From Parafrankia elaeagni (GTDB lineage Bacteria > Actinomycetota > Actinomycetes > Frankiales > Frankiaceae): a stretch of 56,823 bases of DNA. This document shows, piece by piece, positions 37,274 through 53,402 of the stretch; the stretch's first letter is position 1, and every line of letters begins with the position of its first letter. Location of the stretch: assembly GCF_000374165.1 (NCBI RefSeq), contig NZ_KB893736.1:1-56823 (forward strand), written 5' to 3'. The notes beneath the pieces are model-generated. The model did no database searches. It was not told the origin of the DNA and worked only from the letters and a program-made list of their open reading frames with translations. The translations under genes were made by a program, and so were the position numbers.

Positions 37274-38326
37274 CTACTCGAAACCGACGGCCAGATAGTC
37301 GTCGACGTTGTCCCTGGTCACGACCGCCGAATAGGTCGTGATCGACGCCGGGACCTCATGCTCGGCCATACCGCTCAGCCCTGATCCCTGAGCAAGCAGG
37401 CGGGCCAGCGAGATCGCCGAGGAGGACATGCTCGGGCTGTAGAGCACCGTGGCCTTGATCACGGCGTTGTCGCTTTTGATCTGGTCCATCACCCTGCGGG
37501 ATCCGGCGCCTCCGACCATGAAGAACTCGTCCTCGCGGCCGGCCTGCCGGATCGCGGCCTCCACCCCGATTCCCTGGTCGTCGTCGTGGTTCCACAACGC
37601 GTCGATCTGGCCCTCGGCCTGCAGGATCTGGGCGGTGACCTCCTGACCGGTCGCGGCCGTGAAATCGGCCGCCTGCCGCGCGGCGACCGACAGGCCCCGC
37701 GCCTCCAGCGCCTCGCGGAAGCCCCGGCTGCGCTCCTGGGTCAGCTCGAGGCTGTCGATGCCGGCGATCTCGACGATCACGGGGTTGTTGACGTTGCGGC
37801 TGCGCAGAGTGTCGGCGATGTAGCGGCCGGCGTTGGCGCCCATGCCGTAGTTGTCGCCGCCGATCCAGGTCCGATAGGCCAGCGGCGAGGCGAAGACGCG
37901 GTCGAGGTTGACCACCGGGATGCCCGCCGACATCGCCTCTGTCGCGATCTCGGTGAGGGCGTTGCCGTCGAAGGGCAGGATGACCAGCGCGTCGACCTCC
38001 CGGTCGATCAGGGTCCTGACCGCGGAGATCTGCTGCTGGACGTCGTTGGTTCCCTCGGTGGCCTGCAGTGTGACGTCGGAGAACTGGTCCGCCTGGGCCG
38101 TGGCGTTCAGGCTGATCGCGCCCATCCAGCCGTGGTCCGCCGCAGGCGCCGAGAACCCGATCGTGACGGGTCGCCCGGGCGCTGCGGAGGCGTTGGTGGC
38201 CGTGGTCGTCGTGCCGGACGAGTCCGAGTCGTTGCTCGTGCACGCGGCAAGTGCTGCGGTGGCACCCGCGGCCGCACTCCCCAGGAAAAAGCGACGGTTC
38301 AGTAATCTGGGGGATAACTGGGTCAT
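37274..38326 (-). CDS. Sugar ABC transporter substrate-binding lipoprotein
   Basis: The N-terminus LNRRFFLGSAAAGATAALAAC contains both an RR motif and a lipobox Cys, so export is probably Tat-type followed by lipidation. The mature protein is of the ribose/galactose (periplasmic-binding type 1) family: VTIGFSAPAADHGWMGAISLN, LIDREVDALVILPFDGNAL, IPVVNLDRVF and IDALWNHDDDQGIGVEAAI. It captures a sugar-like ligand for the permease and ATPase encoded just upstream. It lies about 100 bases after the permease gene. Confidence 0.9.
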   Translation of the reverse strand: MTQLSPRLLNRRFFLGSAAAGATAALAACTSNDSDSSGTTTTATNASAAPGRPVTIGFSAPAADHGWMGAISLNATAQADQFSDVTLQATEGTNDVQQQISAVRTLIDREVDALVILPFDGNALTEIATEAMSAGIPVVNLDRVFASPLAYRTWIGGDNYGMGANAGRYIADTLRSRNVNNPVIVEIAGIDSLELTQERSRGFREALEARGLSVAARQAADFTAATGQEVTAQILQAEGQIDALWNHDDDQGIGVEAAIRQAGREDEFFMVGGAGSRRVMDQIKSDNAVIKATVLYSPSMSSSAISLARLLAQGSGLSGMAEHEVPASITTYSAVVTRDNVDDYLAVGFE

Positions 38327-38428: not shown

Positions 38429-39460
38429 CTAGGAGGATCGCGCTCTTCCGCGCCGTTGCAGCAGCACGGCCGCCACGATGATGGCACCTTTGGCGATGTT
38501 CTGGATGGGCGTCGACAGATTGTTGAGGATGAACAGGTTGGTGATGGTGGTGAAGATGAGAACACCGAGAATGGAGCCGATCAGGGAGCCGCGTCCCCCG
38601 CTCAGCAGCGTCCCGCCGATGATGACGGCCGCGATGGCGTCCAGCTCGTAAAGGGTGCCGTGGGTGCTGGCCCCCGTGTTCGTCTGCGCCGTCAGCATGA
38701 CTGCGGCAATGCCGCAGCACAGCCCCGACAGCAGATAGAGCAGCGCGGTGTGCCGCCGCACGTTGATTCCGGCGAGCCGGGCCGCCTCCGGGTTCCCGCC
38801 GACGGCATAGGTACGGCGACCGAACGTGGTGCGGTTCAGCAGTATCCAGCCGAGTACGCAGACGACGGCGAGAATGTAGACCAGCATGGGGATGCCGAGC
38901 CATTTCGCCAGGGCGATGTCGGCGAAGGTGTTCACCTCCACGACCTGGGAGCGGCGGTTCGACATCTGTTCGGCGAGGCCGCGGGCGGAGGCGAGCATCG
39001 CGAGGGTGACGATGAACGGAACCAGGCGGCCGTAGGCGATCAGTGCCCCGTTGATCAGGCCGGCGCCCGCGCCGACCACCAGCGCGGTGAACACCATGGC
39101 GGCCAGGCCCAGATCCTGGGTGGCGACGGTGGTCGACCAGACCGAGGCCAGCGCGATGATCGCGCCGACGGACAGATCGATGCCTCCCCCGATGATGACG
39201 AAGGTCATCCCGACCGTGACGATGCCGATGACCGAAGCCGTGGTGAGGATGTTGATGACGTTGGATCTCGTGAGGAAGGTGTCGGCCTCGGTCACCGCGC
39301 CGATGACTGCGAGCACCGCCAGGACCCCGACCAGGCTGAGGATCCGGGACTCACCAGCCAGCGCCAGCAGCTTCCCCGGAGCCCGCGGAACCCGGGCCGG
39401 TGCCGTGGGCGTCCCGACCGGGGTCTCCTCCTTCGCCGGGACGGAGATCTGCCCGTTCAT
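38429..39460 (-). CDS. Ribose-type ABC transporter permease
   Basis: From the ATG at 39460, which overlaps the ATPase stop as ATGA, 343 residues give about nine membrane helices (LVGVLAVLAVIGAVTEA, VIGIVTVGMTFVIIGGGIDLSVG, AMVFTALVVGAGAGLINGAL, IPMLVYILAVVCVLGWI and others). GGGIDLSVGAIIAL and LDAIAAVIIGGTLLSGGRG are hallmarks of RbsC-like permeases. The N-terminal cytoplasmic tail of about 35 residues is low in complexity. Confidence 0.9.
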   Translation of the reverse strand: MNGQISVPAKEETPVGTPTAPARVPRAPGKLLALAGESRILSLVGVLAVLAVIGAVTEADTFLTRSNVINILTTASVIGIVTVGMTFVIIGGGIDLSVGAIIALASVWSTTVATQDLGLAAMVFTALVVGAGAGLINGALIAYGRLVPFIVTLAMLASARGLAEQMSNRRSQVVEVNTFADIALAKWLGIPMLVYILAVVCVLGWILLNRTTFGRRTYAVGGNPEAARLAGINVRRHTALLYLLSGLCCGIAAVMLTAQTNTGASTHGTLYELDAIAAVIIGGTLLSGGRGSLIGSILGVLIFTTITNLFILNNLSTPIQNIAKGAIIVAAVLLQRRGRARSS

Positions 39461-41073
39461 ACGACGGCACCGCCTTCCATGACAAGATCGAGAACGGAGC
39501 GCTCGTCGAGGGCCTCCGCGTCCGCCTCCCGCACCACCCGGCCCTCTCGCAGCACGAGCACCCGGTCGGCCAGACCAAGCACCTCGGGGATCTCGCTGGA
39601 CACCAGCAGGACGCCCAGTCCGGCGTCGGCAAGCTGGCGGATCAGCGCGTACAACTCCGCCCGTGCCCCGATGTCGACACCTCGGGTGGGTTCGTCCAGC
39701 AGCAGCAGGCGACATTCCCGCAACAGCCACCGCGCGAGCACGGCCTTCTGCTGGTTGCCGCCGGACAGCAGTCGGGCGAGGCGCTGCGGGGCCGCGGGGC
39801 GAAGGTCGAGTGTCCGGATCAGGCGGGTGGCGTCATCCCTTTCCCGACGCCGGTCCAGCCAACCCAGTCTGGAGTAGCGCGACAGCGAGGCCACACTGAC
39901 GTTCTGTGTGATCGAATGGTCGAGAAACAGCGCCTGGCTCTTGCGTTCCTCGGGGGCGAGCCCCATGCCGCGGGAGACCGCGGCGGAGACAGTGCCCGGG
40001 CGCAGCACCCTGCCCTCGAACAACACACGGCCGCTGTCGGCTCGACGTGCTCCGTAGATGGTCTCCAGGATCTCCGACCGTCCGGAGCCGACCAGACCGG
40101 CGAGCCCGAGGACCTCCCCGCCGCGCAGGGTGAACGAGATGTCGGTGAACTCGCCGTGCCGGGTGAGGCCCTCCACCCTCAGTACCTCGTTCCGCTCCGG
40201 CTCCGGCTCGCTCCGGTCCGCCGGATCCAACGGGTTCAACGGGTTCAAGGGGTTCAAGGGGTCTGCCGGGCCCAGCAGGTCCCCCGGGTCCGATGTCTTC
40301 TCCGTGGCCGTGCGGGAGCGGCGCGGCGGAAAGGCGTTCTCGATCGACCGGCCGGTCATCAGGGAGACGATCTGCGAGGTGGGCGTGTTCTTGGCGTCGA
40401 TTCCGGAGGCTGCGGTGTGCCCCTCCCGGAGCACCGTCACCCGATCACCGATCTCCCGGATCTCCGCCAACCGGTGCGAAATGTAGAGGATGGCCACATC
40501 TCTGGCGGCGAGTTCCCGGATCACCCGGAAGAGATTGTCGACCTCGTCGGCGGCCAGAACGGCGGACGGTTCGTCCATCACTATCATCCGTGCGTCGCGA
40601 GAAAGCGCTCGAGCCATGCTCACGATCTGCTTCGCGGCCGCCGATAATCGACCGACCTCACGCCGGGCCGGGATCTCGCTGTGCCCCAGTCGTTCCAGCA
40701 GGCCGGCCGCCGCGGCATAGGTGTCGCCGCGGCGGACGAAGCCGAGGCTGGACCGTTCGTGCCCCAGGAAGATGTTCTCGGCCACGGAGAGCCCGTCCAC
40801 CAGGTCGAGCTCCTGGTAGATCGTGGCCACTCCGAGCCGTATCGCCGCGACCGGCGTCGCGAGACGGACCTCGGCGCCCTGCCAGCGGATGGTGCCCTCG
40901 TCCGGCTGCTGCGCCCCGGCCAGAATTTTGATCAACGTGGACTTGCCGGCACCGTTCTGCCCCAGCAGGCAGTGGACCTCGCCGGCCCGTACCTCCAGGT
41001 CGACGCCGCCCAGCGCCCGCACGCCGGGGAAGATCTTGACGATGTCGGACATCGCGAGCAGTGGAGGATTCAT
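39457..41073 (-). CDS. Sugar ABC transporter ATPase with two nucleotide-binding domains
   Basis: The ATG at 41073 overlaps the ROK gene's stop (ATGA), giving 538 residues. The first domain has Walker A GQNGAGKSTL (about 37-46), the signature RLSAAAKQIV and Walker B MIVMDEPSAV. The second has a degenerate Walker A GLVGSGRSE, LSGGNQQKAV and LLLLDEPTRGVDIG, exactly the RbsA/MglA design. Between the domains lies PLNPLNPLNPLDP, encoded by a short tandem repeat (about 40225-40260). It powers uptake through the adjacent permease. Confidence 0.93.
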   Translation of the reverse strand: MNPPLLAMSDIVKIFPGVRALGGVDLEVRAGEVHCLLGQNGAGKSTLIKILAGAQQPDEGTIRWQGAEVRLATPVAAIRLGVATIYQELDLVDGLSVAENIFLGHERSSLGFVRRGDTYAAAAGLLERLGHSEIPARREVGRLSAAAKQIVSMARALSRDARMIVMDEPSAVLAADEVDNLFRVIRELAARDVAILYISHRLAEIREIGDRVTVLREGHTAASGIDAKNTPTSQIVSLMTGRSIENAFPPRRSRTATEKTSDPGDLLGPADPLNPLNPLNPLDPADRSEPEPERNEVLRVEGLTRHGEFTDISFTLRGGEVLGLAGLVGSGRSEILETIYGARRADSGRVLFEGRVLRPGTVSAAVSRGMGLAPEERKSQALFLDHSITQNVSVASLSRYSRLGWLDRRRERDDATRLIRTLDLRPAAPQRLARLLSGGNQQKAVLARWLLRECRLLLLDEPTRGVDIGARAELYALIRQLADAGLGVLLVSSEIPEVLGLADRVLVLREGRVVREADAEALDERSVLDLVMEGGAVV

Positions 41074-42284
41074 GCCCGGTCCTCCGGATACGGCCGGGAC
41101 GAGGGGTCGGCCGAGAAGACCTGGTCGCTGATCAGGCGAGCCGCGCCAACGACGCCCGCGTCCTCGCCGAGTTCGGAGAGCACGATCGGCAGATTGCTCG
41201 TCGCCAAAGGCAGGGAGCGGCGGTAGACCACGGACCGGATCTCGGCCAGAAGCCCGTGCCCGAGACCGGCGACGCCACCGCCTATCACGATGAGGCCGGG
41301 ATTGAAGAAACTGACCAGACCGGCGAGGACCTGGCCCACCCGGCGACCGCCGTTGCGGATCAGCTCCATGGCGGCGGGGTCTCCGATGGCCACCGCGTGG
41401 GCCACATCCGCGGCGGTCAGCTGCCCGGCGTTCGCGAGCCGTTCGGCGAGGAAAGGCGAGTTCCCTGTCCGCGCCGCCGAGGTGGCGTCCCGGGCGAGGG
41501 CGGCCCCGCCGAAGTACGCCTCCAGGCAACCGGTGTTGCCGCAGGCGCACGGCGGGCCGGAGGCGTCGACGCTGATATGCCCGATGTCTCCGGCGCTGCC
41601 GTCGACTCCCCGGTAGCAACGGCCGTCGACGAACAGCGCCGCGCCGATACCGGTACCGATCTTCAGGAAGAGGAAGTCGTCCACGGACCGGGCGAGGCCG
41701 GCATGCCGCTCGCCGAGCCCCATGACGTTCACGTCGTTGTCCACGAGGACGGGACATCCCAGCGCCTGGGTCACCACGTCCCGGACCGGGAACTTGTGCC
41801 ATCCGGGCATGATCGGCGGGCTCACCGGGACTCCGTCGCGGAAGCTCACCGGGCCGGGGACACCCACTCCCGCGCCGTGCAGGTCATAGACGGTCTCCTC
41901 GGCCCGGAGCTTCTCGGCGATCCGCAGGACCTCCGAGAGCACGGCCTTGGGTCCCTGGCTGACGTCGAGTGGCTGGGACGCGCGCCGGACGATCTCCAGC
42001 CGACCCGTGGTGATCGCGACGTCGATCGAGGTCGCTCCGATGTCGACGGCGACGAAGCGGATGTCGGAGGACAACTGGACGATCGATGACCGACGGCCGC
42101 CCCGGGATGCGGCCAGCCCAGCGCTCTCGACCAGTCGGAGCTCCACGAGCCGGTCGAGCTCGCCGGCCACCTTGGATCTCGACAGTCCCACCGCCTCGCC
42201 GAGCTCGGCGCGGGAACGAGGCCCCTCATCCCGCAGTAGTCGGAGCAGGCGCGCCTGGTAAGCGTTCTCCGGCCTGACAGGCAT
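41070..42284 (-). CDS. ROK-family transcriptional regulator, first gene of the sugar operon
   Basis: The ATG at 42284 gives 404 residues. An N-terminal winged helix (PRSRAELGEAVGLSRSKVAGELDRL, about residues 22-46) is followed by the ROK sugar-kinase-like fold: FVAVDIGATSIDVAI, LVDNDVNVMGLGE, KIGTGIGAALFV, GDIGHI and the zinc motif CACGNTGCLE. It probably represses its own operon and releases DNA on binding a sugar. A GTG 18 bases upstream is an alternative start. Being the first gene of the operon suggests self-regulation. Confidence 0.88.
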   Translation of the reverse strand: MPVRPENAYQARLLRLLRDEGPRSRAELGEAVGLSRSKVAGELDRLVELRLVESAGLAASRGGRRSSIVQLSSDIRFVAVDIGATSIDVAITTGRLEIVRRASQPLDVSQGPKAVLSEVLRIAEKLRAEETVYDLHGAGVGVPGPVSFRDGVPVSPPIMPGWHKFPVRDVVTQALGCPVLVDNDVNVMGLGERHAGLARSVDDFLFLKIGTGIGAALFVDGRCYRGVDGSAGDIGHISVDASGPPCACGNTGCLEAYFGGAALARDATSAARTGNSPFLAERLANAGQLTAADVAHAVAIGDPAAMELIRNGGRRVGQVLAGLVSFFNPGLIVIGGGVAGLGHGLLAEIRSVVYRRSLPLATSNLPIVLSELGEDAGVVGAARLISDQVFSADPSSRPYPEDRA

Positions 42285-42380
42285 CAACCTCAACTCCACC
42301 CTCCCCCCATGGGGCAACGATTCGGACGCAAGCGTACGCCGTTTTGGCGCAACAAGGAACATGTTTTACTGGATCTCGTT

Positions 42381-42409
42381 CGACTTTCGTTTCGCAAAGA
42401 ACAAAGTCG
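42381..42409. promoter_or_regulatory. Inverted repeat, candidate ROK operator in the divergent spacer
   Basis: CGACTTT (42381-42387) and AAAGTCG (42403-42409) are perfect partners 15 bases apart, so their centres are about two helical turns apart. They lie in the AT-richer 330-base spacer between two divergently transcribed ROK regulator genes, the expected place for an operator serving both. The rest of the spacer contains no gene. Confidence 0.55.
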
Positions 42410-42615
42410 GCGTCGTGATCGTTGAGACCAGTACCCACTCGGCACTCCGGGCCGCCCGGCAGGCCGGTCGACCGCACAGAGCGCCCCAGAAGGGAGGGCT
42501 CGGCTACGGGATCCACCGATACCGCTCACCAGGAGTGACCCTTCGGCGTACTTATGTCGACAACCAGACAAAAGCGGGCGTCGATAGCAGAGAGTCAGGT
42601 GGAAAGACTAGGGTC

Positions 42616-43809
42616 ATGGCGCCTACATCCAAGGTCGTACGTTCTCCGACCCAACGGTCGGGAGGGGCGGGCGAGCTCTTCCAGCTGCTGCGAGACGGCC
42701 GGCCGCAGACCCGGGCGGACCTCGCTGCCCGCACAGGTCAGGCCCGTTCCACGATCGCCGCACGTGTCGAACAGCTGCTGGCCTCGGGTCTCGTCACCCC
42801 GACGGGAGAGTCCGCCTCCACCGGAGGGCGGCCACCCACCACCTTCGTCTTCAACCCGGCCGCGCGCCTGGTGGTGGCCGTCGACCTCGGAGCCCTGCAC
42901 GGGCACGTCGCGATCACGGATCTCGCCGCGAACGTCCTGGCCGAGCGCAGCGAGCCACTTCCGATCAACAACGGGCCGGACGACGTCCTCGGCTGGGTGG
43001 CGCGGACGGGGCTGGACCTGCTGGCGCAGAGCGGACGTTCGCTGACCGAGGTCGTGGGGGTCGGCGTCGGCCTGCCCGGACCGGTGAACCACGAGACGGG
43101 CCGGCTGACCAACCCGCCGATCATGCCGGGGTGGGACGACTACGACGTCCCGGTTCGGCTGAGTGCGGTCTTCCGGACCTCCGTGCTGGTCGACAACGAC
43201 GTGAACATCATGGCGCTGGGCGAGTACCACATGGCCTGGCGCAACGTCGACCACCTCCTCTTCGTCAAGATCGCCACTGGTATCGGCGCGGGCATCATCA
43301 ACGACGGACGGCTGAGTCGCGGCGCCCAGGGCGCGGCCGGCGACCTCGGCCACGTGGCGGTGGCGGGCCGGGAGGACGTGCCCTGCCGGTGCGGCAACGC
43401 CGGCTGTCTGGAGGCCGTGGCCAGCGGCCAGGCCATCGCGCAGTCGCTGCGCGAGCAGGGCCTCGACGTGCCCGGCAGCGACGAGGTCGTGGCGGCCGTA
43501 CGGGCCGGAAGCCTCCTCGCCGGCCAGACCGTGCGCCAGGCCGGGCGGGACATCGGCGGCGTCCTGGCCACGTGCGTGAGCCTGCTGAATCCGGCCGTGA
43601 TCGTGCTGGGTGGCGTCGTGGCCGAAGCCGGGGAGTATCTGCTGGCGGGTATCCGGGAGGTCGTCTACCGGCGTTCACTGCCGCTGGCCACCCAGCATCT
43701 GCGGATCGTCTCCTCCCAGGCGAAGGGACGCGCCGGCATCGTGGGCGCGTCCATCATGGTCACCGACCACGTACTGTCCCCGACGGCCGTGGAGGCCCTG
43801 CTGGCCTGA
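42616..43809 (+). CDS. Second ROK-family transcriptional regulator
   Basis: The ATG at 42616 follows GGAAAG and gives 397 residues. The winged-helix part (TRADLAARTGQARSTIAARVEQL) and the ROK fold (VVAVDLGALHGHVAI, LVDNDVNIMALGE, KIATGIGAGII, GDLGHV, zinc motif CRCGNAGCLE) are complete. It is clearly paralogous to the divergent regulator (shared LPLAT..L.IV and GIVGA tails). It may control the minus-strand genes that face its 3' end or share the operator in the spacer. Its stop lies inside a 17-base tandem repeat. Confidence 0.87.
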   Translation: MAPTSKVVRSPTQRSGGAGELFQLLRDGRPQTRADLAARTGQARSTIAARVEQLLASGLVTPTGESASTGGRPPTTFVFNPAARLVVAVDLGALHGHVAITDLAANVLAERSEPLPINNGPDDVLGWVARTGLDLLAQSGRSLTEVVGVGVGLPGPVNHETGRLTNPPIMPGWDDYDVPVRLSAVFRTSVLVDNDVNIMALGEYHMAWRNVDHLLFVKIATGIGAGIINDGRLSRGAQGAAGDLGHVAVAGREDVPCRCGNAGCLEAVASGQAIAQSLREQGLDVPGSDEVVAAVRAGSLLAGQTVRQAGRDIGGVLATCVSLLNPAVIVLGGVVAEAGEYLLAGIREVVYRRSLPLATQHLRIVSSQAKGRAGIVGASIMVTDHVLSPTAVEALLA

Positions 43810-43868
43810 GCCGTCAGCTGGCCTGAGCCGTCAGCTGGCCTGAGCCGTCGGCTGGCCTGAGCCGTCAG
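43801..43868. repeat. Four copies of a 17-base tandem repeat at a convergent gene junction
   Basis: CTGGCCTGAGCCGTCAG is repeated four times without a gap (third copy with one change). The first copy contains the ROK gene's TGA stop and the last contains the stop of the convergent isomerase gene (TCA on this strand). Each unit therefore carries a stop codon for either direction. Confidence 0.9.
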
Positions 43869-44875
43869 CGCCGGGTGGAGAACGCGGCGTCGAACGACGC
43901 GGCGGACGGCTGGATCGCGTTGAGGCCCCGGATGTACGCCAGCGCCTCGGGGGCACCGACGAGCCGGTCCATCCCGGCGTCCTCCCACTCGATCGAGATC
44001 GGCCCGTCGTAGCCGATGGCGTTCAGCGCGCGGAAACTGTCCTCCCAGGGCACGTCACCGCGCCCGGCCGAGACGAAGTCCCAGCCCCGGCGCGGATCCC
44101 CCCAGGGCAGGTGCGAGCCGAGCCGCCCGTTGCGGCCGTTGCCGACCCGCCGCCGGGTGTCCTTGCAGTCGACGTGGCAGATCCGGTCGGCGAAGTCCAG
44201 GATGAACGCCACCGGGTCGAGGTCCTGCCACACGAAGTGGCTCGGGTCCCAGTTCAGCCCGAACGCGGGATGGCGGTCGACGGCGTCGAGGGCGTGCAGC
44301 ACCGTCCAGTAGTCGTACGCGATCTCACTCGGGTGGGTCTCGAAGGCGAAGCGGACCCCGACCTCGGTGAAGACGTCGAGGATGGGGCGCCAGCGGTCGG
44401 CGAAGTCCCGGTAGCCCGCTGCCACCGTCTCGGCGGGCACCGGCGGGAACATCGCCACGGTGTGCCAGATCGACGAGCCGGTGAACCCGACGACGGTGCG
44501 CACCCCGAGCTTCGCGGCGACCCGGGCCGTGTCCGCCATCTCCGCGGCCGCCCGCTGCCGGACGCCTTCGGGCTCCCCGTCCCCCCAGATCCGGGCCGGC
44601 AGGATGGCCTGGTGACGGTCGTCGATCGGGTGGTCGCAGACGGCTTGGCCGACGAGATGGTTCGAGATGGCCCAGACCCGCAGGTTGTACTTGTTCAGGA
44701 TCTCTAACCTGCCGGGCAGGTAGTCGTCCTCGGTGAGGGCGCGGTCGATCTCCAGATGGTCGCCCCAGCAGGCGATCTCCAGCCCGTCGTAGCCCCACTG
44801 CGAGGCCAGCCGGCACACCTCGACGAACGGCAGGTCGGCCCACTGGCCGGTGAACAGGGTGATCGGACGGGGCAT
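43865..44875 (-). CDS. Sugar phosphate isomerase/epimerase (TIM barrel), cytoplasmic
   Basis: The 336-residue protein lacks a signal peptide. The barrel shows [48 protein letters not shown] (metal-binding Glu/His), [23 protein letters not shown] and [11 protein letters not shown], close to IolE/IolH-like and other inositol or sugar isomerases. A Tat-secreted relative lies 9 kb away. It follows the alkaline-phosphatase-type gene after about 100 bases holding a GAGGCCGGC-like repeat (44918-44985). Substrate unknown; a cyclitol or keto-sugar is plausible. Confidence 0.85.
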
Positions 44876-44917: not shown

Positions 44918-44985
44918 GCGGGGTCGGCGAGGTCAGCGAGGCCAGCGAGGCCGGCGAGGTCAGCGAGGCCGGCGGGGTCAGCGGG
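44918..44985. repeat. Short imperfect repeats (GAGGCCGGC/GAGGTCAGC)
   Basis: About seven imperfect 9- or 18-base units rich in GAGGCC(A/G)GC and GAGGTC(A/G)GC occur between the isomerase start and the end of the EboF-like gene, whose C-terminus may extend into the first of them. Confidence 0.6.
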
Positions 44986-46414
44986 GGCCGGACGGGCCGG
45001 GTGGGGCCGCCGTCCGCGCCGCGGGGAGCGGTGCGGCGAGCCCGGCGAGCCGGAGCAGCAGGTCCTTCACCTCGGTGGCGCGGATCGACTCAGTGCCGGC
45101 CTCCGGGTCGGAGCAGATCAGTACCGGAGCGTCGTCCGCCGAGGTGGGCAACCGGCCGTGGCTGCCCCGCACGCAGGACGGATCAAGCGGAACGACCTGC
45201 ATGCTGTAACGCAGGCCGAGCTTTCTGCGGGCCAGCGCGGCGCCGGCGCGCACCTTCGCCCACGGATCCGCGGGGTCGAAGAACAGCTCGGCCGGGTCGT
45301 AGCCGGGCTTGCGGTGGATCTCGACCGTGCGCGCGAAGTCCGGCGCCCGGGTGTCGTCCAGCCAGTAGTAGTAGGTGAACCAGGCATCCGGTTCGGCCAC
45401 CAGGACGAGTTCACCGGAGCGCGGATGGTCCAGCCCGTACCGGGCCTTGCCTCCACCGGCGTCGTCGAGGACCTCGTCCACCCCCGGCAGCCGGGCGCAC
45501 AGGTCCCGGACCCGGGCCAGCTCGTCGGGATGACGGACGTAGACGTGCGCGATCTGATGGTCGGCGACGGCGAACGCCCGCGACGCCCACGGGTCGAGCA
45601 GCTCCCACCCGTCCTGGACGTACACCTCCAGCAGCCCCGCCCGGCGCAGCGCCCGGTTGATGTCGACGGGACGGCGCACGGCCGTGATCCCGTACTCGCT
45701 CAGCACCACCGCCGTGGCCCCCCGCGCGCGGATGTCGTCGAGCAGCGGCCCCAGCACCTCGTCGACCTCGCGCGCGGCGACCGCGGCCCGCGGGTCGTCC
45801 GGGCCGTACCGCTGCAGGTCGTAGTCCAGGTGGGGCACGTAGACGAGCAGGCAGTCGGGTCGATGCCGGTCCAGGATCGCTCGCGCCGCGGCGGTGATCC
45901 ACCGTGACGAGGCGATCCCCGCGGTCGGCCCCCAGTACTGGAACAGCGGAAACGGCCCCAGCTCACCGGTGAGCTCGTCGTGCAGGTCGGCCGGACGGAC
46001 GTAGCAGTCCGGCGACTTGCGGCCGTCCGCGTGGTAGACCGGCCGGGGGGTGACGACGATGTCGGTGGCCGCTCCCATCGCGTACCACCAGCACACGTTC
46101 GCCACCCGCCACCCGGGGGCGCGGGTCCGGGCGGCGTCCCAGAGCTTCTCGCCGCCGACCAGCGCGTTGTGCTGACGCCACAGCATGGGCTCGCCCAGGC
46201 CGCGGAAGTACCAGCCGTTGCCGACGATGCCGTGCTCACGGGGAAGCGCACCGGTGAGCAGGGTCGCCTGGACCGAGCAGGTGACCGCGGGCAGCACCGG
46301 ATCCAGCCGGGCCCGGAACCCGCTGCCGGCCAGCCGGGAGAGGTTCGGCATGTGCCGCAGCAGTCGGGGGGTCAGGCCCACGACGTCCAGAACGACCACA
46401 GGTGTCGCACTCAT
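44978..46414 (-). CDS. eboF: EboF-like alkaline-phosphatase-superfamily protein
   Basis: The 478-residue protein belongs to the type I phosphodiesterase/nucleotide pyrophosphatase branch: VVLDVVGLTPRLLRHMPNL (metal Asp), PAVTCSVQATLLTGALPREHGI (nucleophile Thr), VPHLDYDLQRYGPD, VLSEYGITAV and VADHQIAHVYV. In ebo clusters this is EboF. Members of this superfamily hydrolyse phosphate mono- or diesters; no signal peptide is seen, so it may act in the cytoplasm. It begins 3 bases after EboE's stop and is the last of the tightly packed ebo genes. Naming rests on cluster context plus family. Confidence 0.8.
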   Translation of the reverse strand: MSATPVVVLDVVGLTPRLLRHMPNLSRLAGSGFRARLDPVLPAVTCSVQATLLTGALPREHGIVGNGWYFRGLGEPMLWRQHNALVGGEKLWDAARTRAPGWRVANVCWWYAMGAATDIVVTPRPVYHADGRKSPDCYVRPADLHDELTGELGPFPLFQYWGPTAGIASSRWITAAARAILDRHRPDCLLVYVPHLDYDLQRYGPDDPRAAVAAREVDEVLGPLLDDIRARGATAVVLSEYGITAVRRPVDINRALRRAGLLEVYVQDGWELLDPWASRAFAVADHQIAHVYVRHPDELARVRDLCARLPGVDEVLDDAGGGKARYGLDHPRSGELVLVAEPDAWFTYYYWLDDTRAPDFARTVEIHRKPGYDPAELFFDPADPWAKVRAGAALARRKLGLRYSMQVVPLDPSCVRGSHGRLPTSADDAPVLICSDPEAGTESIRATEVKDLLLRLAGLAAPLPAARTAAPPGPSGPR

Positions 46415-46417
46415 CGG

Positions 46418-47719
46418 TCAGCTCCTCACCGACGTCGCGGGGGCGGCGAGGCCGGCCTGACCGAGGCCGGCCTGACCGGCGCCACCCGGAGCGGCACTGC
46501 CCGGAGCGACGCTGCCCGGAGCGACCGCGCTCAGGCCGACGGCGGTCAGGTGGCGCCGGGCCCAGTCGAGTTCGGCGGCGATCCCGGCGACCAGACCCGC
46601 GTCGTCGGTGGGACGCTGCCCGGCGGGGAGCACGTCCCAGGTGTAGGTCTCCACCTCGAGGTGATCGGTCCGGGCCGAGCTGTCGCCGAACAGCCGGGTC
46701 AGCGTGTCCACCAGCACCGGGCTGGTGCTCGCGAGCGGCGCCGGCGGCCGGGCGTGGAGCGGCAGGTGGAAGTGGACCCGCCAGGGTGCGTCGGTGCGCA
46801 GCGCCCGGGGGCCGTGCAGCGCCTCGGCCAGATCGTCGACGCCGACCGCGACGCCCGCTCCACCCCCACCGCCACCGTCATCCCCGCCCGGGGGCGAGAC
46901 CCGGGTCTGGTGCAGGAAACGCGGCTCGACGAACCGCTCCAACCGGGTCCGGCTGGCCGGATCCGCGGGGTCGGCCACGTGCAGCGCGCAGGACGCCTGC
47001 GCCTTGACGATCGGCAGCCCGGCGGCCTCGAGCCGGGCCAGCGCCGTCGCCGGGTCCTCGAACGCGACGGCCAGGTGGCAGATGTCGAGGCAGACCCCGA
47101 TGCGGTCGGTGTCCACCGAGGCCAGGTGCACGACCGCGTCGTTGATCGTCTCCGCGACGCAGCCCGGTTCGGGTTCCAGCCCCACCCGGATCACCCGGCC
47201 GGTCGTGGCCTCCAGCCGTTCCAGGTGCTCCGCCAGCTCGGCCAGGTGCCGCCGGGCGGCGTCGCCCCGGGCCGGCGTCCAGCCGGAGCCCCACCCCAGG
47301 GGCAGGGTGGAGATACTGCCCCGGGCCTCGTCGGGCAGCAGGTCGGCGAGCACCTCGGCGACGTCGGTGGTGTAGTCGAGCCGGGACCGCTCGGTCCAGT
47401 CCGGTGCGTACACGGCGTGCCCGACGACCGGGGCGTGGAAGCCCCGGTAGGGGAACGCGTTGACGGTCACGACCTCCAGCCCCCGGGCCTGCAGCTCGGC
47501 GCGCAGCCGCCGGCGCGCAGCCCCGTCCCGGGCGAGGCCGGCGGCGGTGTCGCGGGCGAGCCAGAGACCCACGCCGAGCAGGTCGACGCCGAGCCGGCGG
47601 CGCACCGGTTCGGCGAAGCGGGCCAGCTGCCCCACCACGCCGTCGACGTCCTCCGCGGGGTGCACGTTGGTGCAGTAGGCGAGGTGGACGGTGGTGCCGT
47701 CCGCATGACTCAGCCTCAT
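46418..47719 (-). CDS. eboE: EboE-like metabolite traffic protein
   Basis: The 433-residue protein starts MRLSHADG...YCTNVHPAEDVDGVVGQL, the characteristic EboE opening, and continues as a TIM-barrel with VNAFPYRGFH, GLEPEPGCVAETI, IGVCLDICHLAVAFED and HFHLPLHA. The C-terminus has Ala/Gly/Pro repeats (APGSVAPGSAAPGG, GQAGLGQAGL). EboE is a conserved, unavoidable marker of ebo clusters; in cyanobacteria these are needed to move the scytonemin precursor to the periplasm. A GGGGG(A/V) stretch lies in a loop (near 46860). Seven bases separate it from EboB. Confidence 0.87.
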   Translation of the reverse strand: MRLSHADGTTVHLAYCTNVHPAEDVDGVVGQLARFAEPVRRRLGVDLLGVGLWLARDTAAGLARDGAARRRLRAELQARGLEVVTVNAFPYRGFHAPVVGHAVYAPDWTERSRLDYTTDVAEVLADLLPDEARGSISTLPLGWGSGWTPARGDAARRHLAELAEHLERLEATTGRVIRVGLEPEPGCVAETINDAVVHLASVDTDRIGVCLDICHLAVAFEDPATALARLEAAGLPIVKAQASCALHVADPADPASRTRLERFVEPRFLHQTRVSPPGGDDGGGGGGAGVAVGVDDLAEALHGPRALRTDAPWRVHFHLPLHARPPAPLASTSPVLVDTLTRLFGDSSARTDHLEVETYTWDVLPAGQRPTDDAGLVAGIAAELDWARRHLTAVGLSAVAPGSVAPGSAAPGGAGQAGLGQAGLAAPATSVRS

Positions 47720-47725
47720 CGCCGG

Positions 47726-48649
47726 TCAGCTTTCCGGCCGGGTGCCGCGCAGCACCGAGTTGCCCGCGAAGGTCGCCGTGGGCTCCACCGGCACGACGCC
47801 CCCGACGCCCCCGACGCCTCCGACGCCTCCGACGTCTCCGGTGCCCCCGATGTCGTCGCCGACGTCCAGCCGCCCGCTCTGCGCGAAGAAGGCGACCGGG
47901 TTACGCCACAGCACCGTGTCGACGTCGTCGTCGGTGAAACCGGCGGCGAGCATCGCCTGCCCGGTCCGGTGGGTCCGTAACGGATCGCTGCGGCCCCAGT
48001 CGGCGGCCGAGTTGACCAGCACGGATCTGGTGCCGTACTCCCGCAGGATCGCCACCATCCGGTCGGGGTCCATCTTGGTGTCCGGGTAGATGGAGAACCC
48101 CATCCAGCAGCCGGAGTCGGCGACCAGCCCGACGGTCACCTCGTTGAGGTGGTCGACGATCACCCGGTACGGGGGGATGCCGGACTCCCGGATCACGTCG
48201 AGGGTACGGCGGGTTCCGCTGATCTTGTCGCGGTGCGGGGTGTGCACCAGCACCGGCAGGTCGTGCTCGACGGCCAGTTCGAGCTGGCGGGCGAAGGCCT
48301 CGTCCTCCTCGGGCGTCATGGAGTCGTAGCCGACCTCGCCCACCGCCACCACGCCGTCCTTGACCAGGTAGCGCGGCAGCTCGTCGAGCACCTCCACGCA
48401 GCGCGGGTCGTTGGCCTCCTTCGGGTTGAGCGCGATCGCGCAGTGGTGGCGGATGCCGAACTGGGCGGCGCGAAACGGCTCCCAGCCGATCAGGGCGTCG
48501 AAGTAGTCGACGAACGACCCGACGCTGGTACGCGGCTGGCCGAGCCAGAAGGCGGGTTCGACGACGGCGCGCACGCCGGCCGCGTACATCTGCTCGTAGT
48601 CACCGGTGGTGCGGGAGGTCATGTGGATGTGGGGGTCGAAGATGCGCAT
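47726..48649 (-). CDS. eboB: EboB-like TatD-family metal-dependent hydrolase
   Basis: The 307-residue protein has the amidohydrolase/TatD signs: DPHIHM with the metal-binding HxH (residues 7 and 9), GEVGYD, VHTPHRDK, VDHLNE and a late NSAADWG. It is the EboB gene of ebo clusters. A loop near the C-terminus, GGVGGVGGVGGV, is encoded by a 9-base tandem repeat (about 47800-47840) that is likely variable in length. The start is the ATG at 48649, 12 bases after the EboA stop. Substrate unknown. Confidence 0.88.
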   Translation of the reverse strand: MRIFDPHIHMTSRTTGDYEQMYAAGVRAVVEPAFWLGQPRTSVGSFVDYFDALIGWEPFRAAQFGIRHHCAIALNPKEANDPRCVEVLDELPRYLVKDGVVAVGEVGYDSMTPEEDEAFARQLELAVEHDLPVLVHTPHRDKISGTRRTLDVIRESGIPPYRVIVDHLNEVTVGLVADSGCWMGFSIYPDTKMDPDRMVAILREYGTRSVLVNSAADWGRSDPLRTHRTGQAMLAAGFTDDDVDTVLWRNPVAFFAQSGRLDVGDDIGGTGDVGGVGGVGGVGGVVPVEPTATFAGNSVLRGTRPES

Positions 48650-48661
48650 CGGATCTCCTGG

Positions 48662-49426
48662 TCACCAGAGAGGACGGGCGTTGGCTAATCGGCCCAGCAG
48701 CACCTGTGCGTCGGCGGGCAGCCGGCGGCCGGCGGCCGCGCGCTCGGCGGCGAGGTCACCGAGCATCCGGCCGAGTTCGGCGTCGGCCCGCCGTTCGAGG
48801 TCCGCCACCACGGTCAGATCCACCTCGAGGAAGACGCACTTGAGCACGCCGTGACGCCATGCCTGGTCGTCGAGATGACGGGCCGCGTAGGGCCCGAGCG
48901 CCGCCGCGACGAGCCGGGAGTCGTTCGTGCGCAGCGCGTCCCGGGTGATCACGAGGGCTGCGTCCCCGAGGTTCAGCAGCGGCAGCGCCCGCAGCACGCC
49001 TCGTTTCTCCGCCGCGTCGCCGCGCTGGTAGATCCGCGTGACCGCCGCGACCCTCGGCTCGGTCGCGGTCGGCAGGGCCGCGAGCAGGACGGTGCGGGCG
49101 GCGTCCTGGACCTGCCAGCCGTCCAGGTCAGTGCGGGGCACAGGCGTGTCGGACGTGGGCGTGTCGGACGTGGGCGTGTCGGGCACGCCCCGCTGCCCCG
49201 CGCGGCCGGGGGTGAGCGGCTTACGACCGCACCAACGGCCGGCCTGGGGAAACAGGCTGGTCAGCGTGTCCGGATCAGCGGCGACGGCCGCCGTCGCGGC
49301 GGCCAGCCACCGGGTGGCATGGGGGTCCAGCCGGGGCGCCAGGACCCGACACAGATCGTCCAGCCCGTCGGGTTGGCCAACGTCAGGTTGGTCAACGGGG
49401 TGGAGCTGGTCGAGTTCGATCTCCAT
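48662..49426 (-). CDS. eboA: EboA-like helical-repeat protein
   Basis: The ATG at 49426 follows a perfect AGGAGGTG ribosome-binding site and gives 254 residues. The sequence is all-helical, with LLAALPTATEPRVAAVTRIYQRGDAAEKRGVLRALPLL, as in HEAT-like repeats, and matches EboA of ebo clusters. A linker SDTPTSDTPTSDTPV is encoded by a 15-base tandem repeat (near 49140-49185). It starts 4 bases after the isomerase stop. Its molecular role in trafficking is not known; protein binding is likely. Confidence 0.8.
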   Translation of the reverse strand: MEIELDQLHPVDQPDVGQPDGLDDLCRVLAPRLDPHATRWLAAATAAVAADPDTLTSLFPQAGRWCGRKPLTPGRAGQRGVPDTPTSDTPTSDTPVPRTDLDGWQVQDAARTVLLAALPTATEPRVAAVTRIYQRGDAAEKRGVLRALPLLNLGDAALVITRDALRTNDSRLVAAALGPYAARHLDDQAWRHGVLKCVFLEVDLTVVADLERRADAELGRMLGDLAAERAAAGRRLPADAQVLLGRLANARPLW

Positions 49427-49430
49427 GGAG

Positions 49431-50345
49431 TCACACCTCCTGCTGGCCGGGCCAGCTCCCGTCCGCGGTGCCGGTCCGGCGGCCGGCGGTGGGGACCACC
49501 GTCGGCCGCCGGACCGCCGCGGCGCGCAGAAACTCGATCGACCGCCGGGCCACGTCGGGGGCGGCATGACTGTGCCGTGGCAGCTCGACGGCGACGAGAC
49601 CCCGGTAACCGGTCTGTGCCAGCGCGGCCAGTACCGGCGGAAAATCGATCTCTCCGGCCCCGAACTCGAGATGGGTGTGGTCGCCCCGGCACATGTCGTC
49701 GATCTGGACATTGCGCAGGTGGGGACCGGCCCGGTGGACGCAGTCGGGCACCGGGTCCGGTTCGAGGCACCGGACGTGCCCGATGTCGAGCGTCAGGCCG
49801 AACAGCGGCGGCGCGCCCAGCTGGGCGCGGAGCCGCTCGAAACCGGCCACGTCCTCGACGAGCATCCCCGGCTCGGGTTCGAAACCGAGCGGCATGCCGC
49901 ACCGGTCGGCGTGGGCGGTCACGGTGGAACAGCCGGCCACCAGCCGCTCCCAGGCCGCCCCGGGGTCGACCTCGGGCCGGCGCACACCGCTCCAGAACGA
50001 CACGGCCTCGGCCCCGAGGTCGGCGGCGACGTCGACGGCAAGACACAGGAACTCGGTCCGGCGGGCCCGGCCGATCTCCGCGACCAGCGTCGGCTCGTGT
50101 TTGCGCCGCGGGTCGAGCAGGTAGCGGGCACCGGTCTCGACGACCACCGCGAGACCGAGGTCGGCGAGCCGGGCCGCGACCGTGGCTGTCCGGCGGGTCA
50201 GCCCGGGTTCGAACGGGTCGAGGTGCGCGTGGTCCAGGGTGAGGGCGACCCCGTCATAGCCGAGGTCCGCGATGATCGCGAGTGCGTCCTGGAGCCGGTG
50301 GTTGGTGAAGCCGTTGGTGCCGTAGCCGAAGCGCAGGGCGCTCAT
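49431..50345 (-). CDS. Sugar phosphate isomerase/epimerase in the ebo cluster
   Basis: The 304-residue TIM barrel carries FGYGTNGFTNH, IIADLGYDGVALTLDHAHL, LGFEPEPGMLVEDVAG, FGLTLDIGHVRCLE (metal His), VQIDDMCRGDHTHLEFG and AVELPRHSH (metal Glu/His). It overlaps the UbiA gene's stop as ATGA, so the two are cotranslated. This is the third such barrel in 16 kb. In ebo-type clusters a xylose-isomerase-like barrel is a regular member. Acts probably on a sugar or cyclitol phosphate intermediate. Confidence 0.85.
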   Translation of the reverse strand: MSALRFGYGTNGFTNHRLQDALAIIADLGYDGVALTLDHAHLDPFEPGLTRRTATVAARLADLGLAVVVETGARYLLDPRRKHEPTLVAEIGRARRTEFLCLAVDVAADLGAEAVSFWSGVRRPEVDPGAAWERLVAGCSTVTAHADRCGMPLGFEPEPGMLVEDVAGFERLRAQLGAPPLFGLTLDIGHVRCLEPDPVPDCVHRAGPHLRNVQIDDMCRGDHTHLEFGAGEIDFPPVLAALAQTGYRGLVAVELPRHSHAAPDVARRSIEFLRAAAVRRPTVVPTAGRRTGTADGSWPGQQEV

Positions 50346-51412
50346 GTGGGGGACACCCGCCGCGCCAGCAGCCGGCTCAGCGGGTAGGACGCCATCACCG
50401 CCGCCGCGGCGACGGGCGCGCCCGACCGGGCGATCAGTGCCGCCTGCAGGGGGATGAGGCCGAGGATTCCGCCGCCCACCGCGCCGCGGATGCGCCCCGC
50501 GGTGGGTTCACGGACGGCCTTGACCTGCGCCGTTCCCACGGTCGCGGCGTAGCCGGCGGCGTACGCCAGACCCGCCAGTCTCGCCAGTCTCTCCAGCCCG
50601 TCCGAACGGTCTCCCGGCTCGCGGCCCGGCTCGCCTCGACGAAGGCCGGCGAGTGCGGCGGAGCCGGCCGGACCCGCGGGGCCGGGGTGGGCGGCGGGTG
50701 CGGCGACGAGGACGGCGGTGACGGCGCCGGTGATGCCCAGCGCCAGCACGGGCACGGAACGTCTCGCCCCGGTGACCTCCCCGCGCGAGAGCACCGTCGT
50801 GGCGAACGTGTGGGCGCTGACGGCCAGGGCGCCGCGTGCTCCCGCCCGGATCGGACCCCCGCCGGCCGCGACGGGGACGGTGGCGGTAGCGCCGAGCAGG
50901 ACGTCGAGCCCGCGGGCCGCGGCCATCGCCGGCGGGCCGGCCGCAGTGTTCTTCAACGCCAGGTCGTAGGCCCACACCACCCCGGCGAGCGGCAGCGCGG
51001 TCCGCAGCGCCGGCCGTCCGCCGGTGGCGCCGGCCAGGGCCAGCCCGGCGGCGGTGAGACCGGTCGCGAGCCCCAGCGCGAAACCCGCGGACGCCCGGCC
51101 GGAGGGAAGGGGACGCTCCGGCCGCTCGACGCGGTCCAGCTCCCGGTCGGCATAGTCGTTGAGCGCCATCCCGGCCCAGTACAGGCAGACCGAGCTGGCG
51201 GCGAGCCCGACGGTACGCGCCGGCCGGGCCGGCCAGCCGGGCCGTGCGCCCGCCCCGGCCACCCGGAACGCCCCGGCCACCCGGAACGCCCCGTCGGCCC
51301 GGAACGCCCCGTCGGCCCGACACGCCGCGCCGACGAGGACGTCGCCCGGCACGGTCAGCGCCGCCGGGGCACGCACCAGCTCGGCCAGGACCGCGGCGGT
51401 GGGGACGGGCAT
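50342..51412 (-). CDS. eboC: EboC-like UbiA-family prenyltransferase
   Basis: From the ATG at 51412 (TGATG overlap with the upstream gene) 356 residues make a membrane protein of about eight helices. The first Asp-rich motif NDYADRELDRVERPERPL binds prenyl diphosphate-Mg. The second, DLALKNTAAG, is the reduced form seen in EboC-type proteins. The N-terminal loop contains ADGAFRADGAFRVAGAFR, encoded by an 18-base tandem repeat (51253-51320). It would transfer a prenyl group to a small acceptor; with the inositol-phosphate synthase next to it, a cyclitol acceptor is possible. Confidence 0.83.
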   Translation of the reverse strand: MPVPTAAVLAELVRAPAALTVPGDVLVGAACRADGAFRADGAFRVAGAFRVAGAGARPGWPARPARTVGLAASSVCLYWAGMALNDYADRELDRVERPERPLPSGRASAGFALGLATGLTAAGLALAGATGGRPALRTALPLAGVVWAYDLALKNTAAGPPAMAAARGLDVLLGATATVPVAAGGGPIRAGARGALAVSAHTFATTVLSRGEVTGARRSVPVLALGITGAVTAVLVAAPAAHPGPAGPAGSAALAGLRRGEPGREPGDRSDGLERLARLAGLAYAAGYAATVGTAQVKAVREPTAGRIRGAVGGGILGLIPLQAALIARSGAPVAAAAVMASYPLSRLLARRVSPT

Positions 51413-52680
51413 CAGGCCGCCCCTGCCGGTCCGCCCAGCGCGCAGGCCCAGTCCCGCAGGATGCGGTACTGCTCGGGAAGCCGGTACTCCGTCGTCCCGA
51501 GCGGATCCTTGAAGTAGTACCCCAGCGCGCCCAGCGGGCCGCTGCATCCGGCCTCGTGCGCGTGGGCGGCGAACCGGGCGAGGTCGAGCACCAGCGGGGC
51601 GGCCAGCGCCGAGTCGCAGCCCTGCCAGGTGACCTGCATCGTCATCCGCACACCGAGGAAGCCCTCGAACAGCACGTGGTCCCAGGCTGTCTTCCAGTCG
51701 CCCAGCGCCGGTACGTAGTCGATGCGGGTGTCGCCGTCGGTGCGGTGCCCGAGCATCCCCCGCAGTCCCTGCCCCTTGGAGGTGGTCTTGCTCGCCGCGG
51801 CCAGTGGATCGGCGAGAGTCGCGCCGTCGCCGCCACCGAGCAGGTTGGTGCCTGACCAGGCCAGGACCCGCAACGCCCGTCCGGTGAACATCGGCGCCAG
51901 CGCGCTGCGTAAGAGGGTCTCCCCGGTCTTGCCGTCGCTGCCCGCGTACGGCAGTGCCCGCTCCCGCGCCAGCAGGCCCAGTGCCGGCAGCCGCATCCCG
52001 GTGGAGGGCGTGAAGTCGACGAACGGGCAGCCGGCCTGGATCGCCGCGTACGCGTAGAGGGAGCTCGGCGGAAGTACGTCGCGGCCGCCGCGGAGCGCGC
52101 GTCCAAGCGCCACCGGGTCCTGGTGTTCCGGGCCGGCGGCGAACCGCGGCTCGGTCGACGACACGTTGACCACGACGACCCGCCGCAGCTCGTGACGGTC
52201 CCGGAAGGAGCTGATGTCGTCGGCCAGCCGCCGCGCCGCGGTGGCCTGGTCCTCGTGCTCCCGCAGGGGCCCACCGGCGCCGTCGCGTATCTCGGTGTCC
52301 GCGGCGGCCAGCTCGTCCTCGACGAGGCTGACGAGACGGGCCGGGACGACGCCGGCCTGGGCCAGCTCGGCGGCCCGCTTCGGCAGGGGTGTCGACGCCA
52401 CGTCGTGGCCACCGAAGACGAGGTCGTCGAGGCTCGGCAGACCGACCCCGGCGAACTCGGCCGTCTCACCGACCATGCCGACCGGCGGAACGAGCCGAAC
52501 GCGCATCGCGGACGCGCCGGTGACCACGGTTGTCGCGACAGAGCCGCGGGCTCCCACCAGCCACACACCCACCCGTGGGCGTGGCCCCGGTCCGGTGGCG
52601 CCCGGTCCGGTGGCGCCCGGTCCGGTGGCGCCGGTCGGCCTGCTGTCGGCGGGCTCGGCCTTCACCTGGGTTGGGTCCAT
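51412..52680 (-). CDS. Divergent myo-inositol-phosphate synthase heading the ebo cluster
   Basis: The ATG at 52680 (AGGG upstream) gives 422 residues, longer than common actinobacterial forms of about 360 because of an N-terminal Pro/Thr/Gly tail with GATGPGATGPGATGPG (tandem 15-base repeat near 52590-52630). The Rossmann part is GVWLVGARGSVATTVVTG. Synthase marks are GSDGKTGETLLRSALAPMF, LAWSGTNLLGGGDGATL, SKTTSKGQ and WQGCDSALAAPLVLDLARFA. The family turns glucose 6-phosphate into inositol 3-phosphate with NAD. Because it is divergent, the substrate may differ. It leads a run of overlapping genes, taking the place that EboD (a sugar phosphate cyclase) holds in other clusters. Confidence 0.8.
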   Translation of the reverse strand: MDPTQVKAEPADSRPTGATGPGATGPGATGPGPRPRVGVWLVGARGSVATTVVTGASAMRVRLVPPVGMVGETAEFAGVGLPSLDDLVFGGHDVASTPLPKRAAELAQAGVVPARLVSLVEDELAAADTEIRDGAGGPLREHEDQATAARRLADDISSFRDRHELRRVVVVNVSSTEPRFAAGPEHQDPVALGRALRGGRDVLPPSSLYAYAAIQAGCPFVDFTPSTGMRLPALGLLARERALPYAGSDGKTGETLLRSALAPMFTGRALRVLAWSGTNLLGGGDGATLADPLAAASKTTSKGQGLRGMLGHRTDGDTRIDYVPALGDWKTAWDHVLFEGFLGVRMTMQVTWQGCDSALAAPLVLDLARFAAHAHEAGCSGPLGALGYYFKDPLGTTEYRLPEQYRILRDWACALGGPAGAA

Positions 52681-53399: not shown

Positions 53400-53402
53400 C
53401 CG

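Follow-up and report, generated by a model that had tools for sequence, protein, structure and literature searches.

A myo-inositol-phosphate synthase in the place of EboD in an ebo-type gene cluster of Parafrankia elaeagni

The closest described relative of the locus treated here is the ebo operon, eboABCDEF (PMC5133447, PMC6282210). The available parts of those papers propose an isoprenoid-cyclitol product, and the Nostoc study concludes that the ebo products jointly translocate the scytonemin monomer to the periplasm (PMC6282210). Operons lacking eboD were noted in Leeuwenhoekiella and in two planctomycetes, and ascribed to deletion or draft gaps; an actinobacterial EboA fused to a xylose-isomerase-like part was mentioned as data not shown (PMC5133447). 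UbiA-297, an EboC relative from an ebo cluster of marine Flavobacteria, is described in the accessible part of PMC9235831 as an active membrane prenyltransferase; unlike the protein considered below, it comes from EboD-type clusters, and it has kin in Saccharomonospora. The word "inositol" does not occur in the main text of PMC5133447 or PMC6282210, and no paper connecting myo-inositol-phosphate synthase (MIPS) with ebo was found in the open-licence literature. Here, an ebo-type cluster from Parafrankia elaeagni is described in which MIPS occupies the place of EboD, the dehydroquinate (DHQ) synthase-like cyclase. It lies on contig NZ_KB893736.1, analyzed over a stretch of 56,823 nucleotides (the window).

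The cluster occupies the minus strand from 44978 to 52680 and comprises seven genes, in the order: MIPS; a SCO3242-family UbiA prenyltransferase; TIM1, a xylose-isomerase-like TIM barrel; EboA; EboB; EboE; and EboF (Table 1). Every junction is an overlap or a gap of at most 12 bases, and the UbiA and MIPS genes share the A of TGATG, a one-base overlap. An initial annotation, made from the sequence alone, had given these coordinates, this order, and the TGATG overlap, and had viewed the genes as one unit; all were correct on re-examination. Like eboABCDEF, the unit holds EboA, EboB, EboE, EboF, and a UbiA-type protein in tight array. Unlike eboABCDEF, it lacks EboD, carries MIPS and TIM1 instead, and has a UbiA protein below the NCBI EboC cut-off. 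The four core names of the initial annotation stood: EboE and the EboA domain exceed their cut-offs (EboA scores 81 bits against the narrower family model NF035937, below its cut-off of 320), and EboB and EboF are homologous to those of EboD-type clusters (EboB is 56% identical to that of Mycetohabitans). Its EboC-like prenyltransferase is not EboC by the NCBI model, scoring 125.8 bits (cut-off 250), and falls in the SCO3242 family instead; the protein does retain the UbiA superfamily match and motifs (NDYADRELD and YDLALK). Of 79 UbiA reading frames, 78 carry a motif of the NDxxDxxxD type.

The family takes its name from SCO3242 of Streptomyces coelicolor. In the available part of PMC3610822, SCO3243 is annotated as a myo-inositol phosphate synthase, SCO3242 and SCO3243 are listed in the calcium-dependent antibiotic (CDA) cluster, and the pair is not presented as an ebo cluster; it is likened to the window's pair by annotation, not sequence. 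Because of that listing, the pairing of MIPS and prenyltransferase genes has long been a matter of public record. NCBI records also already name all genes of the Streptomyces plasmid MIPS-ebo clusters discussed below. The neighboring SCO3237-SCO3241 we take to be ebo genes.

EboD was found neither at the locus, as the initial annotation had held, nor elsewhere in the genome, a draft of 135 contigs (98% complete, contamination 5.46) in which a search with EboD returned only three DHQ-synthase genes. These three score 95.6-122.6 bits against the EboD proteins of Ketogulonicigenium, Deinococcus, and Mycetohabitans, which score 376-404 bits against one another, and they were rejected as EboD. Their neighbors, read from translations, are a shikimate-kinase-like gene (contig C25), a shikimate-dehydrogenase-like gene (C93), and an aldo/keto-reductase-like gene (C120). 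Because EboD was not found at the locus or in the genome, the locus is an ebo variant, not a complete member.

The domain matches of the synthase are PF07994 and PF01658 only, with no DHQ-synthase-like PF01761. Its initial description as a divergent MIPS is borne out by its own clade (see below) and by a score of only 28.6-28.8 bits against the mycothiol-type Ino1 model TIGR03450 (curated cut-off 638). The genome's separate mycothiol-type Ino1, on contig C48, scores 686.8 bits, and the idea of a second housekeeping copy was therefore rejected. The nearest solved structure, at 228 bits only, is the Archaeoglobus fulgidus enzyme (mIPS, 1u1i). In the alignment, the window's synthase retains Lys and Asn at the residues altered in the A. 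fulgidus variants 3qvw, 3qvx, and 3qw2, and K298, K302, K330, K391, and N279 are invariant in 32 of 32 synthase sequences from three groups. In A. fulgidus numbering we take these residues to be K274, K278, K306, K367, and N255, and presume their roles to be catalytic. By its residues, then, the synthase is predicted to be catalytically complete.

The arrangement recurs throughout the Actinomycetota sampled. Of 296 genomes searched, 14 have EboE, the present one included. The other 13 contribute 14 loci (one genome has two copies), and 12 of these hold the full seven-gene set. MIPS is missing from L018, an additional copy in a genome with a full set as well, and from L030, a damaged copy. In L030 (genome G279, 6100-9800), UbiA and EboE are in pieces and no MIPS lies in cis; a MIPS-TIM1 pair is on another contig. 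Within the family of P. elaeagni, 3 of 36 genomes have EboE; the other two (L174, L175) carry MIPS, and the congener (L175) has the same genes side by side. Conversely, all 13 genes for MIPS of at least 48% identity in the 296 genomes, again counting the present one, lie in ebo loci, the next among the matches listed reaching at most 41%. A wider set comprised the best 80 of 585 confirmed EboE relatives from a genome scan, all 80 actinobacterial: 52 loci have MIPS, none has EboD, and 28 have neither; 47 of the 52 MIPS loci have all seven genes. Co-occurrence on this scale (12/14, 52/80, and 13/13) rejects chance linkage of MIPS to ebo. MIPS is thus the common state in sampled actinobacterial ebo loci, which the initial annotation overlooked; its proposal that a non-homologous cyclase replaces EboD has good genomic support. 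Neither of the two findings that it had named as contradicting it, an EboD elsewhere in the genome or synthases of this type solely outside ebo loci, was obtained. Among 127 loci scanned, a gene for a prenyl diphosphate synthase turned up in 11, every one of them a MIPS locus; five of the matches are strong (531-778 bits), at the end of EboF, and the rest weaker (65-212 bits).

Other phyla were sampled through plasmid records, 48 with EboE and 52 with EboB, and 16 ebo-bearing loci were opened, picked for variety. Nine have EboD (Ketogulonicigenium, two Deinococcus, Mycetohabitans, Gloeothece, Azospirillum, Salipiger, Roseivivax, and Aureibacter; the Gloeothece stretch has EboB and EboD only). 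Six have MIPS (Halobaculum, Halocatena, Natronococcus, Gemmatirosa, and two Streptomyces), Haladaptatus has neither cyclase, and none has both. Among the plasmid loci examined, the haloarchaeal sets showed no EboA and no clear EboE, and are therefore labeled ebo-like. In three phyla, EboD-type genes are adjoined by genes for a long protein without a Pfam match and a ferritin-like protein (L040 4051-7069, L166 11981-15262, and L170 5073-8133).

The Gemmatirosa cluster joins features of both types. Its synthase and TIM1 are of the ebo-MIPS kind, at 47.6% and 50% identity to the window's. Its EboB is 72-74% identical to Deinococcus EboB and 44% to the window's, and EboD-type clusters also hold the nearest relatives of its EboF (Azospirillum, 65%) and EboE (Ketogulonicigenium, 54%). 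It shares EboB and an EboG homologue (3e-12, 8e-14) with the eboG-type operon of Deinococcus; there Deinococcus has EboD, and Gemmatirosa MIPS and TIM1. EboD was not found on the Gemmatirosa plasmid (1.04 Mb), the chromosome lying outside this search.

Trees point the same way. The approximately unbiased (AU) test rejects the grouping of all MIPS-type clusters in one clade on EboB (p-AU 2.7e-6; 29 rows of 109), and does so weakly on EboF (p-AU 0.033; 24 rows); Gemmatirosa was left out of the EboE tree, its EboE piece being too short. The synthase tree (66 rows, including every second member of the 80-locus set) places the actinobacterial, haloarchaeal, and Gemmatirosa ebo-MIPS, together with that of Halomarina, in one clade (support 100 in the Shimodaira-Hasegawa-like approximate likelihood-ratio test). 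Since the MIPS-type EboB proteins form no such clade, one synthase lineage has met at least two ebo backbones. By this phylogenetic evidence the cyclases have been exchanged at least twice.

TIM1 appears to belong to the exchange. It was found in none of the nine EboD-type plasmid loci (E 1e-6); at the Ketogulonicigenium locus, a nearby TIM-barrel gene weakly matches TIM2, another TIM barrel of the window (87 bits). The sister clade of ebo-MIPS sits in a non-ebo cluster common to Roseomonas and three Actinomycetota genomes (L182 7974-17161; L177, L178, L179): MIPS, methyltransferase, Gfo/Idh, metallo-hydrolase (MBL-fold), YcaO, TIM1 homologue, GT4 glycosyltransferase, and PIG-L deacetylase. 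Like the window's locus, this cluster has MIPS and a TIM1 homologue; unlike it, it has YcaO, a glycosyltransferase, and a deacetylase, and no ebo genes or UbiA were seen there. In a further Actinomycetota genome, MIPS and a TIM1 homologue lie side by side. Because TIM1 goes with MIPS even outside ebo, and with none of the nine EboD loci, MIPS and TIM1 seem to have been exchanged as a two-gene cassette, a feature missing from the initial annotation. (The reported fusion of EboA to a xylose-isomerase-like part fits TIM1-EboA, which are fused in L028.) The best Protein Data Bank (PDB) match of TIM1 reaches only 27.8 bits; the nearest entries are keto-sugar epimerases and isomerases. The YcaO-type MIPS cluster itself resembles an unassigned pathway for a cyclitol or pseudo-sugar.

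This suggests a model for the locus. From a hexose phosphate, most likely glucose 6-phosphate, the synthase would form the ring of an inositol phosphate, which TIM1 would isomerize or epimerize, either as such or in its keto form. The pair would replace EboD, for which a C7 cyclitol made from sedoheptulose 7-phosphate has been proposed. EboA, EboB, EboE, and EboF, the core common to both types, may then trim or activate the cyclitol, and the UbiA protein would prenylate it in the membrane. Finally, the prenyl-cyclitol would serve chemistry at the outer face of the membrane, where its likely clients are the exported sugar-oxidizing proteins encoded next door (31879-38326, and TIM0). A prenylated, exported inositol-like compound had already been suggested in the initial annotation. 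The genomic data establish the gene order, the swap with its recurrence, the conservation of the active sites, and the linkage to sugar-oxidation genes; the substrate, the sequence of reactions, the prenylated product with its export, and the service to exported proteins are inferred. Functional substitution of EboD by MIPS and TIM1 is probable. For a prenylated inositol-type product the case is evenly balanced, and service to exported oxidoreductases is a tentative extension, less likely than not. The first two steps taken together are the best explanation, toward which we lean slightly.

The product of ebo has been an open question since the operons were named, and repeated exchange of EboD amounts to a natural experiment. 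Its swap for a well-understood, unrelated cyclase points to cyclitol formation as the EboD step, and would connect the product with inositol chemistry. The Streptomyces form is expected to occur in laboratory strains that are easy to work with. A second clue to function may lie in the association with exported sugar-oxidation proteins, considered next.

Table 1. Genes of the ebo-type unit and of the adjoining sugar-oxidation block, in window coordinates.
Feature	Coordinates	Strand	Evidence and notes
Ebo-type myo-inositol-phosphate synthase (MIPS), in EboD's place	51412..52680	-	PF07994 9.8e-48, PF01658 1.2e-30
SCO3242-family UbiA prenyltransferase, EboC-like	50342..51412	-	NF045897 341 bits (cut-off 260)
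TIM1, xylose-isomerase-like TIM barrel	49431..50345	-	PF01261 3.3e-36; 4-base overlap with UbiA
EboA	48662..49426	-	EboA domain NF035938 159 bits (cut-off 50); ATG at 49426; gap 4
EboB, TatD-like metal hydrolase	47726..48649	-	PF01026 6.2e-14; gap 12
EboE, TIM barrel	46418..47719	-	NF035939 423 bits (NCBI curated cut-off 250); gap 6
EboF, NPP/phosphodiesterase-like hydrolase	44978..46414	-	PF01663 2.2e-64; gap 3
TIM0, 3-keto-sugar hydratase-like, probably part of the unit	43865..44875	-	PDB 2zds 563.7 bits; 8ro4 ("2-hydroxy-3-keto-glucal hydratase") 118 bits
ROK-family regulator, divergent	42361..43809	+	PF00480 6.2e-56
ROK-family regulator	41070..42362	-	PF00480 2.1e-56
ATP-binding cassette (ABC) transporter permease, sugar type by neighbors	38429..39730	-	PF02653 4.5e-39
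Sugar-binding protein, exported-looking N-terminus	37274..38326	-	PF13407 1.5e-38
Gfo/Idh/MocA oxidoreductase, levoglucosan-dehydrogenase-like	35999..37228	-	PF01408 and others; NF052479 352 bits, below cut-off 650
TIM2, TIM barrel, twin-arginine-type N-terminus by eye	34868..35875	-	PF01261 3.2e-12
Exported-looking glucose/sorbosone dehydrogenase-like (GSDH-type) protein with PKD and CBM6 domains	31879..34692	-	PF07995 3.4e-31

The unit probably also takes in TIM0 and the sugar-oxidation block as far as 31879, an extension that the initial annotation overlooked. TIM0 follows EboF on the same strand after 102 bases. Matches to it above 200 bits occur at 31 of the 52 MIPS loci, against 2 of the 28 others, both of these short contigs. 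A scan for sigma-70 promoters and terminators gave no promoter-like and one terminator-like site, no more than in shuffles. The GSDH-type gene is the sole PF07995 match in the genome, and the congener likewise has one, each on the ebo contig; the window's protein scores 35 bits against the NCBI pyrroloquinoline quinone (PQQ)-dehydrogenase model, far below the cut-off of 434.55. Of the 52 MIPS loci, 34 have a GSDH homologue inside the stretch fetched, and none of the 28 others does; in 10 of 15 genomes one lies no more than about 20 kb from MIPS-ebo, with 0.47 expected by chance. Two further domain types follow the same distribution, as counted with models built from two loci and bearing the Pfam names for those two: ThuA-type (32/52 versus 1/28) and 3-keto-disaccharide-hydrolase-type (23/52 versus 0/28). 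Neither occurs in the window's own block. The latter family has been connected with 3-ketoglycosides, according to the accessible part of PMC9007349. Elsewhere, Salipiger has a PQQ dehydrogenase beside its EboD-type cluster. A "PQQ-dependent sugar dehydrogenase" annotated near the Natronococcus set is a cut piece of 375 residues that matched no such domain, and was not counted.

A broader proposal, which we consider speculative and on balance improbable, is that ebo operons make a family of prenylated cyclitols, which would work in the membrane as cofactors or electron shuttles and serve exported β-propeller oxidoreductases (GSDH-type here, ScyE-type in makers of scytonemin and on one Streptomyces plasmid, and the Salipiger PQQ dehydrogenase). 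The head would be interchangeable: C7 from EboD, or C6 from MIPS plus TIM1. If true, this would define a new class of lipid cofactor, its head group swapped by non-homologous enzymes more than once.

Several observations weigh against the substitution of EboD by MIPS and TIM1, or against the functions built upon it. No product is known for any ebo cluster in the literature searched. The rings from MIPS (C6) and EboD (C7, as proposed) are expected to differ, so the final compounds may differ too, and the "replacement" may be a new pathway. UbiA-297, the one characterized EboC relative, farnesylates quinolines in vitro; the acceptors tested, in the available part of PMC9235831, were aromatic, with no cyclitols among them. 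Of the 28 MIPS-less loci, 15 are stretches shorter than 16 kb, as are 3 of the 52 MIPS loci. The groups for the AU tests were defined by gene content, though after sight of a quick tree. The Halomarina synthase (L036 11980-13224) belongs to the ebo-MIPS clade, yet no ebo genes lie within 12 kb. Eight extra MIPS places were read in Streptomyces; six are MIPS-ebo clusters, and two are without clear ebo neighbors. Fifteen MIPS-less copies, from 14 Streptomyces and one other genome, form one clade of the EboB tree (support 93) within the actinobacterial MIPS type. Among 15 genomes with a MIPS-less copy (14 of this clade and L056), two have no ebo-type MIPS anywhere and two more have fragments only. 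Finally, GSDH is absent from the stretch at 18 of the 52 MIPS loci. The association of MIPS with GSDH has a Fisher value of 5e-6 (43/64 versus 0/13, loci of at least 16 kb), but the tree offers one independent pair, and for that reason the contrast is not relied on.

The prenyl-cyclitol might instead be a metabolite carrier, ferrying a secondary metabolite across the membrane as the Nostoc study proposed for the scytonemin monomer; this is possible, though rather unlikely. A Streptomyces plasmid (L041 10672-13146) has a ScyD/ScyE-family gene (256 bits) directly before MIPS-ebo, ScyE being, in the available part of PMC6282210, the proposed scytonemin-dimerizing protein of cyanobacteria. The cluster of Streptomyces NBC_01650 lies near adenylation-domain genes of the nonribosomal peptide synthetase (NRPS) type, and the listing of SCO3242 and SCO3243 in an antibiotic cluster fits as well. 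A carrier sits less easily with the sugar-oxidation genes found next to 34 of the 52 MIPS-type loci (a count that left antibiotic genes aside), or with the profile searches, in which none of the seven core genes matched a transporter family.

Less likely still is a synthase of altered chemistry, one whose ring product, for use by TIM1, would not be inositol phosphate but, for instance, a five-membered cyclitol or the phosphate of a keto-cyclitol. Such a shift would suit its separate clade and its distance from the mycothiol type, and the superfamily does include a five-membered-cyclitol-phosphate synthase (6k96); the keto-sugar enzymes nearest TIM1 would also fit. The retained lysines and Asn mutated in A. 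fulgidus, along with the other aligned lysines, argue for the ordinary reaction.

At a similarly low level of probability, the synthase could belong to the sugar or inositol metabolism of the adjoining block and be merely co-transcribed, giving ordinary inositol, with the ebo core independent of it. Three observations are in keeping with this: the MIPS-less ebo copies of Streptomyces; the sugar-oxidation genes beside many MIPS-type loci; and the synthases of Halomarina and of two Streptomyces places without clear ebo neighbors. The genome, however, already has its own Ino1; the MIPS and UbiA genes overlap by one base; MIPS is present at 52 of 80 loci, and its linkage to ebo extends across Actinomycetota, haloarchaea, and Gemmatirosa. 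Moreover, 13 of the 15 genomes with a MIPS-less copy hold ebo-type MIPS elsewhere, counting the two with fragments. Chance neighbors or misassembly can be dismissed as extremely improbable: the assembly is a draft with some contamination, but the same genes stand side by side in the congener, in 12 of 14 loci of the phylum, and in 47 of the 80-locus set.

The MIPS-less copies may represent a second ebo class, found in Streptomyces and one other genome, with genes for an inositol-monophosphatase-family protein and a flavin adenine dinucleotide (FAD) oxidoreductase. Eight such loci have both genes upstream (L018, L067, L075, L080, L085, L089, L092, and L120). The phosphatase-family gene of L018 scores 194 bits against PF00459, and its nearest NCBIfam model is a histidinol phosphatase, below that model's cut-off.

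Two other features of the window are on the plus strand. At 53007-53825, upstream of the synthase and divergent from it, is a MntA/HepT type VII toxin-antitoxin pair (NF047751, 104.7 bits, cut-off 60; NF047752, 57.7 bits, just below 60). At 54442-55410 is a gene for an exported-looking hydrolase resembling polyethylene terephthalate (PET) hydrolases (PF12740, 393 bits).

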